From positions 372,001-436,000 of the forward strand of contig NZ_VDUX01000002.1 in assembly GCF_008039565.1 (NCBI RefSeq): 64,000 nt of DNA, given 5' to 3'. The translations under genes and the position numbers were made by a program. Positions 48,808 to 55,061 of this stretch are shown in pieces. The notes under the pieces were generated by a model, which was given only the letters and a program-made list of their open reading frames with translations, searched no databases and was not told the DNA's origin. Source of the stretch: Aeromicrobium terrae (GTDB taxonomy: Bacteria > Actinomycetota > Actinomycetes > Propionibacteriales > Nocardioidaceae). Position 1 is the first letter of the stretch. The number at the start of each line of letters is the position of its first letter.

Positions 48808-50910
48808 TCAGGAGCGCAGCGACGCGAGCAGGCTGAGCGCCGAGTCGGCGATGACCGTGCCCGGGAGGAAGACCTCCGCGGCACCCATCTCCTTCAGGGT
48901 CGGGACGTCGTCCGGCGGGATGACGCCGCCCACGACGACCACGATGTCCTCGCGGCCGAGGTCCTTCAGCGCCTGCTTCAGCTCGGGCACCAGCGTGAGG
49001 TGGCCGGCCGCGAGGCTGGAGATGCCGACGATGTGCACGTCCGCGTCGACCGCCTGCTGGGCGACCTCCTCGGGCGTGGAGAACAGCGGGCCGACGTCGA
49101 CGTCGAAGCCCATGTCTGCGAAGGCCGTGACGATGACCTTCTGGCCGCGGTCGTGACCGTCCTGGCCCATCTTGGCCACGAGGATGCGCGGCCGACGTCC
49201 CTCGGCCTTCTCGAACTCCTCGGTGGCCTCGATGACCTTGGCGACGTTGCCGCCCTGGCCGGCCTCGCTCCGGTACACACCGGAGATCGTACGGATGACG
49301 GCCTGGTGGCGCCCGTAGACCTTCTCGAGGGCGTCGGAGATCTCGCCGACCGTGGCCTTGGCGCGGGCCGCGTCGATGGCGAGGGCGAGCAGGTTCCCGT
49401 CGAGCGAGCCGTCCTTGGCGGATCCACGCTCGGCGCTCTTCGTGAGCGCGTCGAGGGTGCGGTCGACCTCGTCCTGGTCGCGCTCCGCGCGCAGTCGCTC
49501 GAGCTTGGCCACCTGCTGCTGGTAGACGGACGCGTTGTCGACCTTGAGGACCTCGAACGGCTCCTCCTGGTCGACGCGGTAGGTGTTCACGCCGATGACC
49601 GCCTGCTGGCCGGAGTCGATGCGCGCCTGGGTGCGGGCGGCGGCCTCCTCGATGCGCATCTTCGGGATGCCGGCCTCGATGGCCTTGGCCATGCCGCCGG
49701 CCTCCTCGACCTCCTGGATGTGCGCCCAGGCGCGGTTCGCGAGGTCGTGGGTGAGGCGCTCGATGTAGTACGAGCCGGCCCACGGGTCGATGACGCCCGT
49801 GGTGCCGGACTCCTGCTGGAGCAGCAGCTGCGTGTTGCGCGCGATGCGGGCGCTGAAGTCCGTCGGCAGCGCGATGGCCTCGTCGAGCGCGTTGGTGTGC
49901 AGACTCTGCGTGTGGCCCTGCGTCGCGGCCATCGCCTCGATGCACGTGCGCGCCACGTTGTTGTAGACGTCCTGCGCGGTGAGCGACCAGCCCGACGTCT
50001 GGCTGTGCGTGCGCAGGCTCTGCGACTTCGGGTTCTTGGGGTCGAAGTCGGCCACGAGCCGCGACCAGAGCGCGCGGGCGGCGCGGAGCTTGGCGACCTC
50101 CATCGCGAAGTTCATGCCGATGGCCCAGAAGAAGCTCAGGCGTGGCGCGAACGCGTCGATGTCGAGCCCGACGTCCAGGCCGGCGCGGATGTACTCGACG
50201 CCGTCGGCCAGCGTGTACGCGAGCTCGAGGTCGTTCGTCGCCCCGGCCTCCTGGATGTGGTACCCGGAGATCGAGATGGAGTTGAACCGCGGCATCCGCT
50301 CGGCGGTGAACGCGAAGATGTCGGAGATGATCCGCATCGACGGGGCCGGCGGGTAGATGTAGGTGTTCCGGACCATGAACTCCTTGAGGATGTCGTTCTG
50401 GATGGTCCCTGAGAGCTGCTCCGGCTTCACCCCCTGCTCCTCGGCCGCGACGATGTAGAGCGCGAGCACCGGCAGCACCGCGCCGTTCATCGTCATCGAG
50501 ACGCTCATCTCGTCGAGCGGGATGCCGTCGAAGAGCTGACGGGCGTCGTAGATGGAGTCGATCGCGACGCCGGCCATGCCGACGTCGCCCTTCACGCGCG
50601 GGTGGTCGGAGTCGTACCCGCGGTGGGTGGCGAGGTCGAACGCGACGGACAGGCCCTTCTGGCCGGCCGCGAGGTTGCGGCGGTAGAAGGCGTTGGACTC
50701 CTCCGCGGTGGAGAAGCCGGCGTACTGGCGGATCGTCCACGGCTGCGTCGTGTACATCGCCGGGTACGGGCCCCGCAGGAACGGTGCGAGGCCCGGATAC
50801 GTGTCCAGCGCGTCGAGGCCCTTGAGGTCGTCGGCGGTGTAGAGCCGCTTGATCTCGATGCCCTCGGGAGCCTCCCAAGGCTCGCCGGCGAACGACTCGG
50901 GGATGCTCAT
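48808..50910 (-). CDS. mutB: Methylmalonyl-CoA mutase large subunit
   Basis: A 700-residue B12 enzyme that interconverts (R)-methylmalonyl-CoA and succinyl-CoA. The TIM barrel has [19 protein letters not shown] and [28 protein letters not shown]. The C-terminal cobalamin domain shows [13 protein letters not shown], with the DxHxxG histidine that replaces dimethylbenzimidazole, and [20 protein letters not shown]. Its ATG overlaps the mutA stop by four bases. Longer frames upstream run antisense into mutA and are rejected. Confidence 0.96.
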
Positions 50911-52679
50911 GAGGCCAGCTCCTGACGGGTGCGGCGCAGGAAGTCCAGCGCGTCGACGCCCATCGCGGCGGAGTCGTCCGCGCCGACGTCGTTCTTCCCG
51001 GCGACGATCACGTGCTTGGCCCCGGCCTCGCGCAGGGCCCCGACGACGTCCTCGCCCCACTCGGCATAGAGGGCGTCGGGCCCGGCGAGACAGGCGACGG
51101 CGGGCGTGCCGGCGTCGCGGTAGGCGCTGACGACGTCGTCGACGCCCTCGGTGGCGCCGGCGACGACGGTCTCGATGCCGCCGGCGGCGAACAGGTTGGC
51201 GGCGAACGTGGCGCGCGCCGTGTGCTGCGCGACGCGACCGAGCGTGGCCAGGAAGACCGGGGCCTTCGCGGGGTCGTCGCGGAGGGCCTCGAACGAGGCT
51301 CCGTACCGGTGCACCACCGGGGCGCGCCCGTAGGGGCGGCGCTCGGGACGCGTCTCCTGCAGGTTCGGGAACTCGGTGAGGCCGGTGATCGGGCGCTGGC
51401 GGACGGCGATCTGCTGCTCGCGGGCGGCCACCCTCTCCTCGATGCGTGCCTGCAGGGAGTCGGGATCTTCCTCGAGATCGCCGAACAGGGTCCACGCGGC
51501 CTGGGCGAGCTCGGCGGTGAGCTTCTCGACCGCGTACGACCCTCCGGCGATGTCGACGACCTTGCCGAGGTGGGACTCGTGGATCAGCAGGCTCGACTGG
51601 TTGCGGGCGATGCGTCGGCTGAACGCCTCGGGCAGGCCGAGCGGCTCGTCGAACGGCAGGACGGTGACGGCCTCGGCACCGCCGACGCCGGCGGAGAACG
51701 CGGCGATCGTCGTGCGGAGCATGTTCACGTACGGGTCGTAGGCCGACATCATCGGGCGCGACGTGACCGCGTGCTGGCGCTGGCCGCGCTGCTCGGCCGG
51801 GACGTCGCTGAGCTCGAGCATCCGGCTCCACAGCAGCCGGGCGGCGCGCAGCTTGGCAATGGTGGTGAGCTGCTCGTCGGTGGCGGCGTAGCGGACGTCG
51901 ATCTGGGCGGCGGCGTCCTCGACGCTCAGCCCGGCCTCGACGAGGGCGCGCAGGTAGCGGGCGCCGGTGGCCAGCGAGTAGGCCAGCTCCTGCACCTCGG
52001 ACGCCCCGGCGTCGTGCACGGTGGTGGCGTCGACGACGACGCCGCGCACGCCGCGGGCCCGGGCGAGCTCGACGACCGCGAGTCCGTCCGGCGTGGTGGG
52101 GTCGGCGCCGTAGCTGGTGTCTGGGTGCGGCTGGACGGCCTTGTCCTCGATGACGGCGTCGAGGGCGCGAGCGGCGGCCAACGGGTCGTCGAGGGCGTCG
52201 AGCACGACGGGCGCGAGATCGAGGAAGACCGGCTCGAGGATGCGCGCCAGGGCGTCGGCCGGGACGGCGCCGTCGCCGACGGTGATCCAGAGCGAGTTGA
52301 CGCCGTTCTCCAGGTCGGTGACGACGTGCTGCGCGGTGACGTCGACGTCGGGGTCGGTGAACCAGCCGCGGACGTCCCAGCCCTCGAGCTCGCGGGTGGC
52401 GGTGGTGCCGCGCGTGAACGGCGCCTCGCCGGGGAGTCCCGGGTCGTCGAGGTCGGCCACCAGCGACGGCGTGCCGAGCGGGGTGATGCTGAGGCCGTCG
52501 AGGGTCTCCTGCGTGAGCAGGCCCCAGACGTCGTGGTCGGGCGCGTCGTCAGCCAGCTTCCTGGACTTCCGGAGCACGGCCGCGGTGGCCTTCTCCCAGT
52601 CGGCGACGTCGACGTCGATGCCCTCCGCTAGTGGGACCCGGACAGCGCCGACGTCCTCAGGGACCTGCGCAGAAGCCAT
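50907..52679 (-). CDS. mutA: Methylmalonyl-CoA mutase small subunit
   Basis: A 590-residue non-catalytic partner of MutB. It has the same barrel ([55 protein letters not shown]) and a degenerate B12 domain without the DxHxxG histidine, as expected for the small subunit. TACGAT (52692-52687) lies seven bases before ATG 52679, which is therefore preferred to ATG 52688. The array of 22-bp repeats begins about 50 bases upstream of that box. Confidence 0.93.
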
Positions 52680-52686
52680 ACGGGGC

Positions 52687-52692
52687 ATCGTA
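52687..52692 (-). promoter_or_regulatory. -10 box of mutA (leaderless)
   Basis: TACGAT on the reverse strand, seven bases before ATG 52679. It overlaps the alternative start ATG 52688 and so argues for the shorter protein. Confidence 0.5.
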
Positions 52693-52740
52693 TGAGCGCT
52701 TGCTTACCTCCCGCCACCCGGTGTGACCAAACCGACCGCT

Positions 52741-52923
52741 GACGAGAGACTCCCGGCCCGCTGACGAGAGAGTTCCGGCCCGCTGACGAGAGAGTTCCGG
52801 CCCGTCGACGAGAGAGTTCCGGCCCGTCGACGAGAGAGTTCCGGCCCGTCGACGAGAGAGTTCCGGCCCGTCGACGAGAGAGTTCCGGCCCGTCGACGAG
52901 AGAGTTCCGGCCCGTCGACGAGA
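52741..52923 (+). repeat. Upstream 22-bp tandem array (8 units)
   Basis: Eight full 22-bp units starting at 52741, 52763, 52785 and so on to 52916, plus a seven-base ninth unit. Units 3-8 are identical (GACGAGAGAGTTCCGGCCCG then TC); unit 2 ends CT, and unit 1 is diverged in its middle. The array fills the divergent gap between mutA and the carbonic-anhydrase gene. Its reverse complement matches the downstream array. There are no spacers, so it is not CRISPR. Confidence 0.95.
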
Positions 52924-52936
52924 AGATGGGACCGGC

Positions 52937-52942
52937 TACTTT
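52937..52942 (+). promoter_or_regulatory. -10 box of the carbonic anhydrase gene
   Basis: TACTTT seven bases before ATG 52950. The -35 zone would fall in the last repeat unit of the array. It supports ATG 52950 over ATG 52926. Confidence 0.5.
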
Positions 52943-52949
52943 GGACACC

Positions 52950-53462
52950 ATGGAGATCTCCCTCGACGGCCACAGCCCGACCATCGCCGACGACGCCTGG
53001 GTGTCGCCCACCGCCGTCCTCGCCGGTCGCGTGACGCTGGAGGCCGGGGCGAGCGTCTGGTTCGGCGCCGTCCTCCGGGCCGACAACGAGCCCATCACCA
53101 TCGGCGCCCGGTCGAACGTCCAGGACAACGCGGCGTTCCACGTCGACACCGGCCGGCCCGTGACCCTCGGCGAGGGCGTCTCCGTCGGCCACGGCGCGAT
53201 CGTCCACGGCGCCACCGTCGGCGACCACGTGCTCATCGGCATGGGCGCCATCGTCATGAACGGCGCCGTCATCGGCGACGAGACCCTGATCGCCGCAGGT
53301 GCGCTGGTGCCGGAGGGCATGCAGGTCCCGCCTCGGTCGCTCGTCGCGGGCGTACCTGGGAAGGTGCGACGAGAGCTCAGCGAGGACGAGGTCGAGAAGC
53401 TGCACGACAACGCAAGGATCTACGAGGAGCACCGCGAGCTCTACCGTCGCTCGACGGACTGA
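52950..53462 (+). CDS. Gamma carbonic anhydrase-like protein
   Basis: A 170-residue left-handed beta-helix hexapeptide-repeat protein. WVSPTAVLAGRVTLEAGASVWFGAVLRAD is the opening, and the three zinc histidines expected of gamma carbonic anhydrases are present in FHVDTGRP and VSVGHGAIVHG. A C-terminal helix (EDEVEKLHDNARIYEEHREL) closes the subunit. CO2 hydration is plausible, and a link to the carboxylation steps that feed methylmalonyl-CoA is possible but inferred. The gene is enclosed by inverted arrays of a 22-bp repeat; the downstream array starts within its stop codon. Confidence 0.9.
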   Translation: MEISLDGHSPTIADDAWVSPTAVLAGRVTLEAGASVWFGAVLRADNEPITIGARSNVQDNAAFHVDTGRPVTLGEGVSVGHGAIVHGATVGDHVLIGMGAIVMNGAVIGDETLIAAGALVPEGMQVPPRSLVAGVPGKVRRELSEDEVEKLHDNARIYEEHRELYRRSTD

Positions 53463-53587
53463 ACTCTCTCCTCACCGGGCCGGAACTCTCTCCTCAGCGG
53501 GCCGGAACCCTCTCCTCAGCGGGCCGGAACCCTCTCCTCAGCGGGCCGGAACTCTCTCCTCAGCGGGCCGGAACCCTCTCGTCAGCG
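53461..53587 (-). repeat. Downstream 22-bp tandem array (5 units), inverted
   Basis: Five full units (start positions 53461, 53483, 53505, 53527, 53549) and a 17-base sixth. On the reverse strand each reads CGGCCCGCTGAGGAGAGAGT then TC, differing from the upstream units mainly at one base (GAGG for GACG). The last partial unit has the upstream-type CTCGTC. The array begins inside the carbonic-anhydrase stop codon and abuts the stop of the convergent NCS2 gene. Confidence 0.95.
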
Positions 53588-55039
53588 TCAGGTGAGCCAG
53601 CGGGTCACCGGGTCGATGGCGAAGTAGAGGACGAACAGCGCCGAGATCAGCCACAGCAGGGCGTGCACCTCGGCCGCCTTGCCGCGCACCGCCTTGAGCA
53701 CCGTGTAGGCGATGAAGCCCGCGCCGATGCCCGCCGTGATCGAGTACGTGAACGGCATCAGCACGATCGTCAGGAACGCCGGGATGGCGATGTCGTTGTC
53801 GTCCCAGGTGATGTTCTTGATCTGGCTCATCATGAGGAAGCCGACGACCACGAGCGCGGGCACCGCGGCCTCGCTCGGGATGTGCTCGACGAGCGGGGCG
53901 GCGAACGTCGACAGCAGGAACAGCACGCCGGTCACGACCGAGGCGAGACCAGTGCGGGCACCGTCGCCCACGCCGGCCGCCGACTCGATGTACGACGTGT
54001 TGCTCGAGATGCCCGCGGCGCCACCAGCGGCCGCGGCGAGCGAGTCGACGACCAGGATCTTCTGCGCGCCCTCCGGCGTGCCGTCCTCGTCGTTGAGCCC
54101 TGCCTCCGCGCCGATGGCGGTCATCGTGCCCATCGTGTCGAAGAAGTCGGCGAGCAGGAGCGTGAAGACCAGCAGCACGGCCGTCACGAAGCCGGCCCGG
54201 TCGAAGCCGCCGAGCAGGTTGAAGTCGCCCAGCAGGCCGAAGTCGGGCTTGGCGAAGATCTTGTCCGGCCACTCCGGGACGTTGAGGTTCCAGCCCTTCG
54301 ACGTCGGGTCCCCGCCGCCGGCGCCCGTGTCGGTGATCGCCTGGACGATGCCGGCCAGGATGGTGGTGGCCACGATGCCGATGAGGATCGCGCCGGGGAT
54401 GCCGCGCGAGTAGAGCGTGATCATCAGCAGCAGGCCGATGCAGAACACCAGGACCGGCCAGCCGGCCAGGTTGCCGCCGATGCCCAGGCCGACGGGCGGG
54501 GCAGCGATGCCGGACGTGCGCACGAAGCCGGCGTCCACGAGACCGATGAACGTGATGAACAGGCCGATGCCCACGGCGATCGCGGTCTTCAGCTGGCGCG
54601 GGATCGCGTCGAAGACGAGCTTCCGGAAGCCGGTGAGCACCAGCACCAGGATGATCAGGCCCTCGAGCACGACGAGGCCCATGGCGTCGGCCCACGTCAT
54701 CTCGCTCGCGACGGAGTACGCGACGAACGCGTTCAGGCCGAGGCCGGTGGCCAGCGCGAGCGGGAAGTTCGCGACGACCCCCATGAGGATCGTGATCACG
54801 CCGGCGACCAGCGCCGTGACGACGGCGATGGTGGCGAAGCCGGAGCCCGGCTCGCTGCCGCCACCCAGGAACTTGCCGTCCGCGTCGGCGACGCCGGCGA
54901 GGATGATCGGGTTCAGGACGATGATGTAGGCCATCGTCAGGAACGTGACGACACCGCCACGTACCTCCTGAGCGACGGACGATCCGCGGCTGCTGATCTT
55001 GAAGTAGCTGTCGAGCCCCGAGGTGATGGTCGTGGTCAT
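53588..55039 (-). CDS. NCS2 family purine permease (AzgA-like)
   Basis: A 483-residue membrane transporter with 12-14 helices. VRGGVVTFLTMAYIIVLNPIILA at the start, GLGLNAFVAYSV, FFDTMGTMTAIGAEAGL, and GAAGISSNTSYIESAAGVGDGARTGLASVVTG are diagnostic of the AzgA/PbuG hypoxanthine-guanine-adenine permeases. ATG 55039 is preferred because CATGCT lies seven bases upstream; ATG 55051 is an alternative. It may recycle purine bases by proton symport. Confidence 0.94.
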   Translation of the reverse strand: MTTTITSGLDSYFKISSRGSSVAQEVRGGVVTFLTMAYIIVLNPIILAGVADADGKFLGGGSEPGSGFATIAVVTALVAGVITILMGVVANFPLALATGLGLNAFVAYSVASEMTWADAMGLVVLEGLIILVLVLTGFRKLVFDAIPRQLKTAIAVGIGLFITFIGLVDAGFVRTSGIAAPPVGLGIGGNLAGWPVLVFCIGLLLMITLYSRGIPGAILIGIVATTILAGIVQAITDTGAGGGDPTSKGWNLNVPEWPDKIFAKPDFGLLGDFNLLGGFDRAGFVTAVLLVFTLLLADFFDTMGTMTAIGAEAGLNDEDGTPEGAQKILVVDSLAAAAGGAAGISSNTSYIESAAGVGDGARTGLASVVTGVLFLLSTFAAPLVEHIPSEAAVPALVVVGFLMMSQIKNITWDDNDIAIPAFLTIVLMPFTYSITAGIGAGFIAYTVLKAVRGKAAEVHALLWLISALFVLYFAIDPVTRWLT

Positions 55040-55061
55040 GCTCGGCAGCATGCCAGAGGTC

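Follow-up and report, generated by a model that had tools for sequence, protein, structure and literature searches.

Why does a single gene in Aeromicrobium terrae lie exactly between two arrays of a short repeat that are reverse complements of each other? The locus was found in a stretch of 64,000 nucleotides (hereafter the window, whose coordinates are used below), 71% GC, on contig C2 of a 3.1-Mb genome (G000). A repeat search with unit counting located a forward arm of eight 22-bp units (unit GANGAGAGNNTTCCGGCNNNNN) at 52737..52923 on the plus strand, with 8.3 copies at a spacing of 22 between 52741 and 52923, and a reverse arm on the minus strand at 53461..53587, the reverse complement of the forward one, with 5.8 copies. 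The enclosed gene (52950..53462, plus strand) encodes a hexapeptide-repeat protein of 170 aa from its conserved start; Pfam gives Hexapep, and following the preliminary description we take the product to be gamma-carbonic-anhydrase-like (CA). To the left lies a methylmalonyl-CoA-mutase-family gene (MUTA; 50907..52688, minus strand), whose start faces the forward arm and on whose side the arm ends in CGCTGACGAG, and to the right an NCS2-type permease gene (53588..55051, minus strand), both assigned by synteny and by Pfam (MM_CoA_mutase and Xan_ur_permease, respectively). A search of seven sources for known RNA families at gathering thresholds returned only two tRNAs, both in the window.

The two arrays are real and complementary, with 86% complementarity over 132 nt, and a 20-mer of the unit allowing up to 3 mismatches matched 13 times in the window versus 0.06 times in shuffled sequence. 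The preliminary description had counted eight forward and five reverse units; the forward count stands, while the reverse array holds about six, the innermost being degenerate. Its statement that six upstream units are identical was roughly right, as seven forward 20-mers are identical; read in steps of 22 bp, the array shows full identity among units 4-8, from which units 2-3 deviate only in a two-base linker. The fit to the neighboring genes is as tight as had been described: the CA start is most likely 52950, because homologues begin there, which is 26 bp past the end of the forward array (about 25 bases had been given), the inner end of the reverse arm overlaps the CA stop codon (53460-53462), and its outer end lies directly before the permease stop codon (53588-53590).

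A search of the whole G000 genome with 3 mismatches yielded 59 matches, and none for the reversed control pattern. These fall at 11 sites, located at 321050, 556231 and 587196 on contig C1, at 424741 (the window locus) and 531979 on C2, at 173656-174897 (site E), 370666, 413081 and 420257 on C3, and at 128368 and 250782 on C4. Forward units precede reverse units at all 11, with arm sizes ranging from 1+1 to 8+6 units and correlating across sites (Spearman 0.87, counting one chance unit at site E). In nine cases only a short loop separates the arms, and three of these closed members, when folded, gave z-scores of -10.5, -9.3 and -6.4; in the other two, the window locus and site E, a gene occupies the space between them. 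The two window arrays are thus opposite arms of a single element, which belongs to a genome-specific intergenic hairpin family; arms in this family are tandem arrays of the 22-bp unit. The copies are therefore not scattered singly or in one orientation without relation to genes, but form inverted pairs at gene ends; of the expectation that they flank genes in inverted pairs, the pairing is the rule of the family (11/11) and the enclosure of a gene is confined to 2 of the 11 sites.

Comparison of about 75 units showed conserved blocks, GANGAGAG and TTCCGGC, around variable linkers (76 units were tallied, one of which, inside the gene enclosed at site E, is a chance match, and a second degenerate reverse unit at site H was left out). 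Local tandem growth of units within arms is plausible, since mean unit identity is 0.86 within an arm versus 0.80 between forward and reverse units of different sites. This retains one part of the earlier proposal of recent amplification or gene conversion. Copying from arm to arm within a site was considered and rejected: forward and reverse units paired in register are not more alike than across sites and are, if anything, less alike (4,969 of 5,000 shuffles reach the observed value). The exact 20-mer had no match in a genome-contig collection from which its own or very near genomes may be excluded, and 38 relatives gave 39 scattered 3-mismatch matches versus 16 for the reversed control. No arrays of the 22-bp unit were found in these 38 genomes, apart from a hint in G003, where the same architecture is built from a different 22-bp unit (L101:7060-7161; fold z -11.6).

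It had been suggested that the two arrays could pair into a long stem in an RNA spanning the CA gene, or that each could serve as a ladder for a binding protein. A conserved -10-like motif of the CA gene (TACTTT, 52937..52942, plus strand) lies between the arms, 7 nt before the start. Such a motif (TANNNT, 4-9 nt upstream of the start) accompanies CA in 47 of 48 genomes, versus 1.2% of control ATG/GTG sites. Because it follows the forward array in G000, transcription of CA should normally begin past that array and include the reverse one alone. Each arm by itself, moreover, gave a poorer fold than its shuffles did (z +3.1 and +2.4). On both counts, pairing of the arrays within the CA mRNA is unlikely and was set aside; both arms would come together only in read-through RNA. 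The broader proposal that the arrays were built to regulate CA, by stem or by ladder, seems to us very improbable. The two conserved blocks of each unit could be protein half-sites, but the family also has 10 members next to other genes, the CA promoter motif is located inside the pair of arrays, and an arm by itself is unstructured.

The positions of the simple elements show where such hairpins settle. A stop codon lies at or inside an end of all nine simple 22-bp elements, often as the TGA of CGCTGA, and six of them are between convergent genes and three between co-directional ones. G000 also has a second family, a 63-bp hairpin with GTGACGTT/AACGTCAC cores present in 13 copies, which was found in 32 of 149 genomes sampled from the bacterial family, its own included, with no match to the reversed pattern. 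Its elements in G000 occupy 7 convergent and 6 co-directional slots as called, or 6 and 7 once a nuclease gene in L237 is counted, which was overlooked by our gene caller, a home-made GC-frame score. Taken together, the 22 simple or 63-bp elements are 13 convergent, 9 co-directional and 0 divergent as called, or 12 convergent and 10 co-directional after this addition; the convergent excess is significant (p 2e-6 to 3e-4, depending on the treatment of background), and the absence of divergent sites, taken alone, is borderline (p 0.05-0.09). Both G000 families thus sit at gene 3' ends, and by eye both mostly end in CGCTG. The 63-bp elements of G014 are less tidy: 7 lie between convergent genes, 11 between co-directional and 2 between divergent ones, and 2 were called intragenic. 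Beside 34 elements of 63 bp, reading by eye revealed no duplication of the target site.

Further hairpins were noted in passing. Another G000 family, with arms of the GGTTTACC...GTTCAGTGGG type and without an identified partner gene, occurs at L286, L299, L303 and L292, and a dense cluster of two more families, with arms CTTGAGCTTGTCGAA and GTATCGAGACCA, occupies L307:1484-6195 (G000:C4). In G014, short tandem copies of outer ends, e.g. CCGCTGACTCC, lie beside 63-bp hairpins (L227 and L225), and perhaps represent the start of arm growth as in the 22-bp family.

Such placement fits an explanation in which the hairpins are host features only, that is, bidirectional terminators or protectors of mRNA 3' ends that accumulate beside stop codons, so that genes seem enclosed when hairpins settle at both of their ends, and any nuclease gene found there is merely one that is often gained. 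The location of G000 elements at stop codons in convergent or co-directional slots favors it, as do the high stability of the RNA hairpins and the reading of 20 stretches of relatives at five slots, which hold other hairpins or little. On the other hand, no clear T-run follows the hairpins in the flanks read by eye, and terminators of this kind leave unexplained the results described next on the genes that the hairpins enclose, for which reason we regard the explanation as rather unlikely, though the most serious of the rivals.

The gene enclosed by arms of the 22-bp family at site E encodes a 308-aa AbiEi-like protein, a putative nuclease. The flanking genes, VTT and Sua5, are adjacent in 6 of 7 relatives searched (for the seventh no VTT match was listed). 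The site-E protein is a distant member of its family (blastp E 5e-4 to 1e-3; Pfam AbiEi_4 just below cut-off), relatives of which are enclosed by tight pairs of 63-bp hairpins in G000, G005, G007, G011 and G014. An HMM search of 2.70 Mb of overlapping loci (E ≤ 1e-4, ORFs of at least 100 aa) recovered 11 distinct AbiEi/DUF559-like members in the genus, and every one of them is flanked on either side by inverted hairpin repeats. In eight, each end carries a whole hairpin; in two (L270 and L321) the repeat at one end is arm-only or degenerate; and in one (site E) the arms are split. Three of the 11 come from stretches chosen regardless of hairpins and the other eight from hairpin-bearing loci. 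In the units read, the repeats enclose the AbiEi-like gene and no other. Solitary AbiEi/DUF559-like genes in Aeromicrobium are thus bracketed by inverted hairpin repeats, whose sequences are of several unrelated kinds.

Chance bracketing was assessed against 577 genes of G000 (260-bp flanks) and 250 of G014 (300-bp flanks), ranked by their flanking inverted repeats, and rejected, the nuclease copies being top-ranked. L304 ranks first of the 577, among which it is itself counted (22.0; next 19.0), and L330 and L321 rank first and second of the 250 (67.5 and 37.0; next 16.0); each of the other eight copies is equalled by 0-2 of the 577 controls, one of these being L304 itself. The 40 G000 stretches were spaced by hand and largely missed sites already taken. 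The hairpin family also matches the clade of the nuclease: members of clade A (48-59% identity) are accompanied by the GTGACGTT hairpin in 5/5 genomes, and those of clade B (44% identity, 2 copies) by CGAGATTTG hairpins. Host features alone leave unexplained both this match between nuclease clade and hairpin family, together with the genome-specificity of the families, and the top ranks of nuclease genes in stretches chosen regardless of hairpins.

Three such bracketed genes were seen in G000 (L237, site E and L304). In L237:3004-4154 (G000:C2, ~126303-127453) two 63-bp hairpins surround an AbiEi/DUF559-like gene of ~323 aa. The copy at L271:2227-3230 (G005) is in two overlapping open pieces, seemingly interrupted near its start.

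Alignment of seven sequences of the family revealed invariant E196, D230, E241-x-D243-G, D256, R259 and E261. PADLOC AbiEi models matched 6/6 proteins scanned (best E 1.4e-5 to 3.2e-19), DUF559 scored above cut-off in 4/9, and a search of solved structures gave weak matches (best E 0.2 and 0.37). The gene product is thus a putative PD-(D/E)XK-like nuclease, with a D..ExD core present. Among distant homologues outside the genus, 1/5 is bracketed and 4/5 show nothing; a Collinsella aerofaciens homologue (NZ_OY725717.1, L341:1890-3435) lies between arrays of ~62-bp hairpins, with ~4 upstream and 2 downstream, and this hairpin occurs at 23 places in the record.

Tight hairpin pairs also enclose other genes. 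Three were found in G010, around a gene that is methyltransferase-like by look and small ORFs, and one in G005 around a 406-aa gene (L272); a wider pair in G014 encloses what look like two-component genes. The methyltransferase-like gene, between two 63-bp hairpins at L274:2255-3236 (G010:C1), is possibly another passenger. Here and below, the names serA-like, tuf, RluD-like, aminotransferase, methyltransferase and DUF222/HNH are presumptive.

The CA gene was then compared with its counterparts in the genus. Among 45 congeneric genomes with a landmark gene, many of which held only some landmarks (three of 48 CA loci, in G010, G051 and G017, had none and were excluded), CA is oriented as in NCS2>CA><SerC MUTA> in 43 and is inverted in two, G000 and G052 (Aeromicrobium sp. 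CnD17-E). In both of these, the inverted gene is enclosed by the genome's own hairpin family. The window CA gene, together with its promoter motif, thus sits at the would-be loop of a hairpin, inverted relative to nearly all relatives. SerC is located elsewhere in G000, beside a serA-like gene. A DUF222/HNH-looking gene, presumably of the 13E12 type, lies just upstream of the relocated serC and the serA-like gene (L266:241-1459, G000:C6).

In CnD17-E, CA lies between ~66 bp inverted repeats containing a hairpin, and related inverted repeats bracket both CA and a nuclease (L270, beside a tuf-like gene). The hairpin has 5 copies, two at CA, one at the nuclease and two elsewhere, and is absent from the others of 49 genomes. 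In both G000 (22-bp family) and CnD17-E, therefore, one family encloses one nuclease and one CA and has further copies. Compared with G005, CnD17-E shows 93-99% identity up to the SerC and permease stops versus 83% in CA. At fourfold sites, CA differs at 50/97, versus 48/328 in the permease, 37/243 in SerC and 8/141 in the mutase part, i.e. 52% in CA versus 15% in the flanks (p 4e-14, CA vs permease plus SerC), whereas in the control pair G005-G057 CA and flanks are equal. This contrast marks the CnD17-E CA, on sequence grounds, as a foreign allele. Phylogeny of CA alone was not decisive as proof of import, with mixed AU tests, and fourfold sites were used for CnD17-E: a native clade for its CA was not rejected (AU p 0.09 protein, 0.26 DNA). 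The permease of G000 groups with G044 and others and its CA does not, a G000+G044 grouping for CA having AU p 0.0015 (protein) and 0.0056 (DNA), while a wider clade was rejected by protein (0.0047) and not by DNA (0.26); in discordance between CA and permease, G000 ranks 2/33, behind the non-inverted genome G020. These data argue for import of the G000 CA more weakly than for that of CnD17-E.

These comparisons also bear on a simpler history, in which homologous recombination between inverted repeats flipped a native CA in place, possibly as a reversible switch, with neither import nor a mobile element. In its favor, inversion of CA is seen solely in the two genomes whose CA gene is enclosed by inverted repeats, the window arms exceed 100 bp with 86% complementarity, and the nuclease at an aminotransferase/RluD-like locus is likewise inverted in G005 relative to G014 and G007. 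However, a flip in place does not account for a CnD17-E CA far more diverged than its flanks at fourfold sites, nor for the failure of the G000 CA to group with G044, and the window arms are half-elements rather than two whole elements. We consider such a flip improbable.

The explanation that we favor, and think somewhat likelier to be right than wrong, is that the window carries a passenger CA gene within one member of a REP-like hairpin family, and that an AbiEi/DUF559-like nuclease may be the partner of this family. Each hairpin family would represent the REP-like ends, or the gene-less copies, of a small mobile unit of the form hairpin-nuclease-hairpin. The nuclease, or host repair of breaks at hairpins, would let units enter 3' gene ends, as a unit with the nuclease, as a unit with a captured gene or as a bare hairpin, and, as the ends are palindromic, a captured gene could land in either orientation. 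In this way a CA allele could have come to lie flipped between the permease and mutase genes of G000, the window locus being the passenger variant, in which the arms of the hairpin unit hold CA where the nuclease would be. As a side effect, transcripts from either direction may end at bare hairpins. Movement of the hairpins by the nuclease is our inference. Against this reading weigh the other genes enclosed by tight pairs, the 4/5 distant homologues that lack brackets, the weak link of the site-E protein to its family, the origin of eight nuclease copies in hairpin-bearing loci, the lack of visible target-site duplications, the less regular placement in G014, the AU tests that leave native clades standing, and the discordance of CA and permease in the non-inverted G020.

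The presence of a bracketed CA together with the same kind of hairpin around a solitary nuclease-type gene hints at a small mobile element that has not been described. In its widest form the idea is a tentative one, to which we give somewhat less than even chances: a new class of minimal mobile element in Actinomycetota, in which solitary AbiEi-fused PD-(D/E)XK (DUF559/Vsr-like) nucleases would act on cognate hairpins and so mobilize their own genes, hairpins without a gene and, now and then, a captured host gene such as CA. Such an element would be a counterpart of REP/RAYT without an HUH enzyme, and would also exchange single genes between species, whichever way round they land. AbiEi- and DUF559-type genes that stand alone abound in Actinomycetota and are not known to have a role; if they were strictly tied to genome-specific hairpins, they would gain one. 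Such a tie would also explain the spread of REP-like palindromes in bacteria without RAYTs, and would show how a foreign allele could take the place of one host gene, flipped and sharply bounded by stop codons.

Several known systems share parts of this organization. The hairpins resemble intrinsic terminators in forming a stable hairpin just past a stop codon and differ in the lack, by eye, of a clear U-tract, and the AbiEi-like domain of the bracketed proteins recalls the AbiE type IV toxin-antitoxin systems. In the literature, titles and abstract openings among the matches listed held nothing on Aeromicrobium hairpins or on hairpin-flanked DUF559/AbiEi genes. MITEs and insertion sequences have terminal inverted repeats around one gene and short gene-less copies, and both inverted ends around one gene and gene-less copies are present here; however, duplication of the target site was not seen, the enclosed gene does not encode a known transposase, and the ends are themselves hairpins. 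Neisserial DNA uptake sequences form inverted pairs that act as terminators at gene ends and are tied to gene exchange. The Aeromicrobium repeats are likewise inverted pairs at gene ends with a probable link to gene exchange, but their copies number in the tens and belong to several unrelated families per genome.

The closest parallel is with REP/RAYT systems. As described in two papers (PMC2817692, PMC3733652), REPs are short palindromes particular to a genome that lie close to the 3' ends of ORFs, mainly where neighboring genes converge or run the same way; a genome has several families, and two inverted REP copies flank an enzyme gene. Aeromicrobium matches them in the bare palindromes at gene ends, in the enzyme gene between inverted copies and in the family-by-family match, and the G000 elements likewise occupy convergent or co-directional slots, with 0 divergent. 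The systems differ in that the arms of the 22-bp family are tandem arrays, and in the bracketed gene, which is AbiEi/DUF559-like, a putative PD-(D/E)XK nuclease and not a Y1/HUH transposase. RAYTs themselves (Y1_Tnp, PF01797) were found in 0/49 genomes by a search that was positive in 5/14 control genomes, and no GTAG or CGTC tag was seen by eye at the ends of the 22-bp and 63-bp families. CGTC-tagged REPs apparently lack a dedicated transposase, according to one of these papers (PMC3733652). The Aeromicrobium palindromes are similar to them in being dispersed without an adjacent RAYT, and differ in having no noted tag and in possessing a candidate partner gene.
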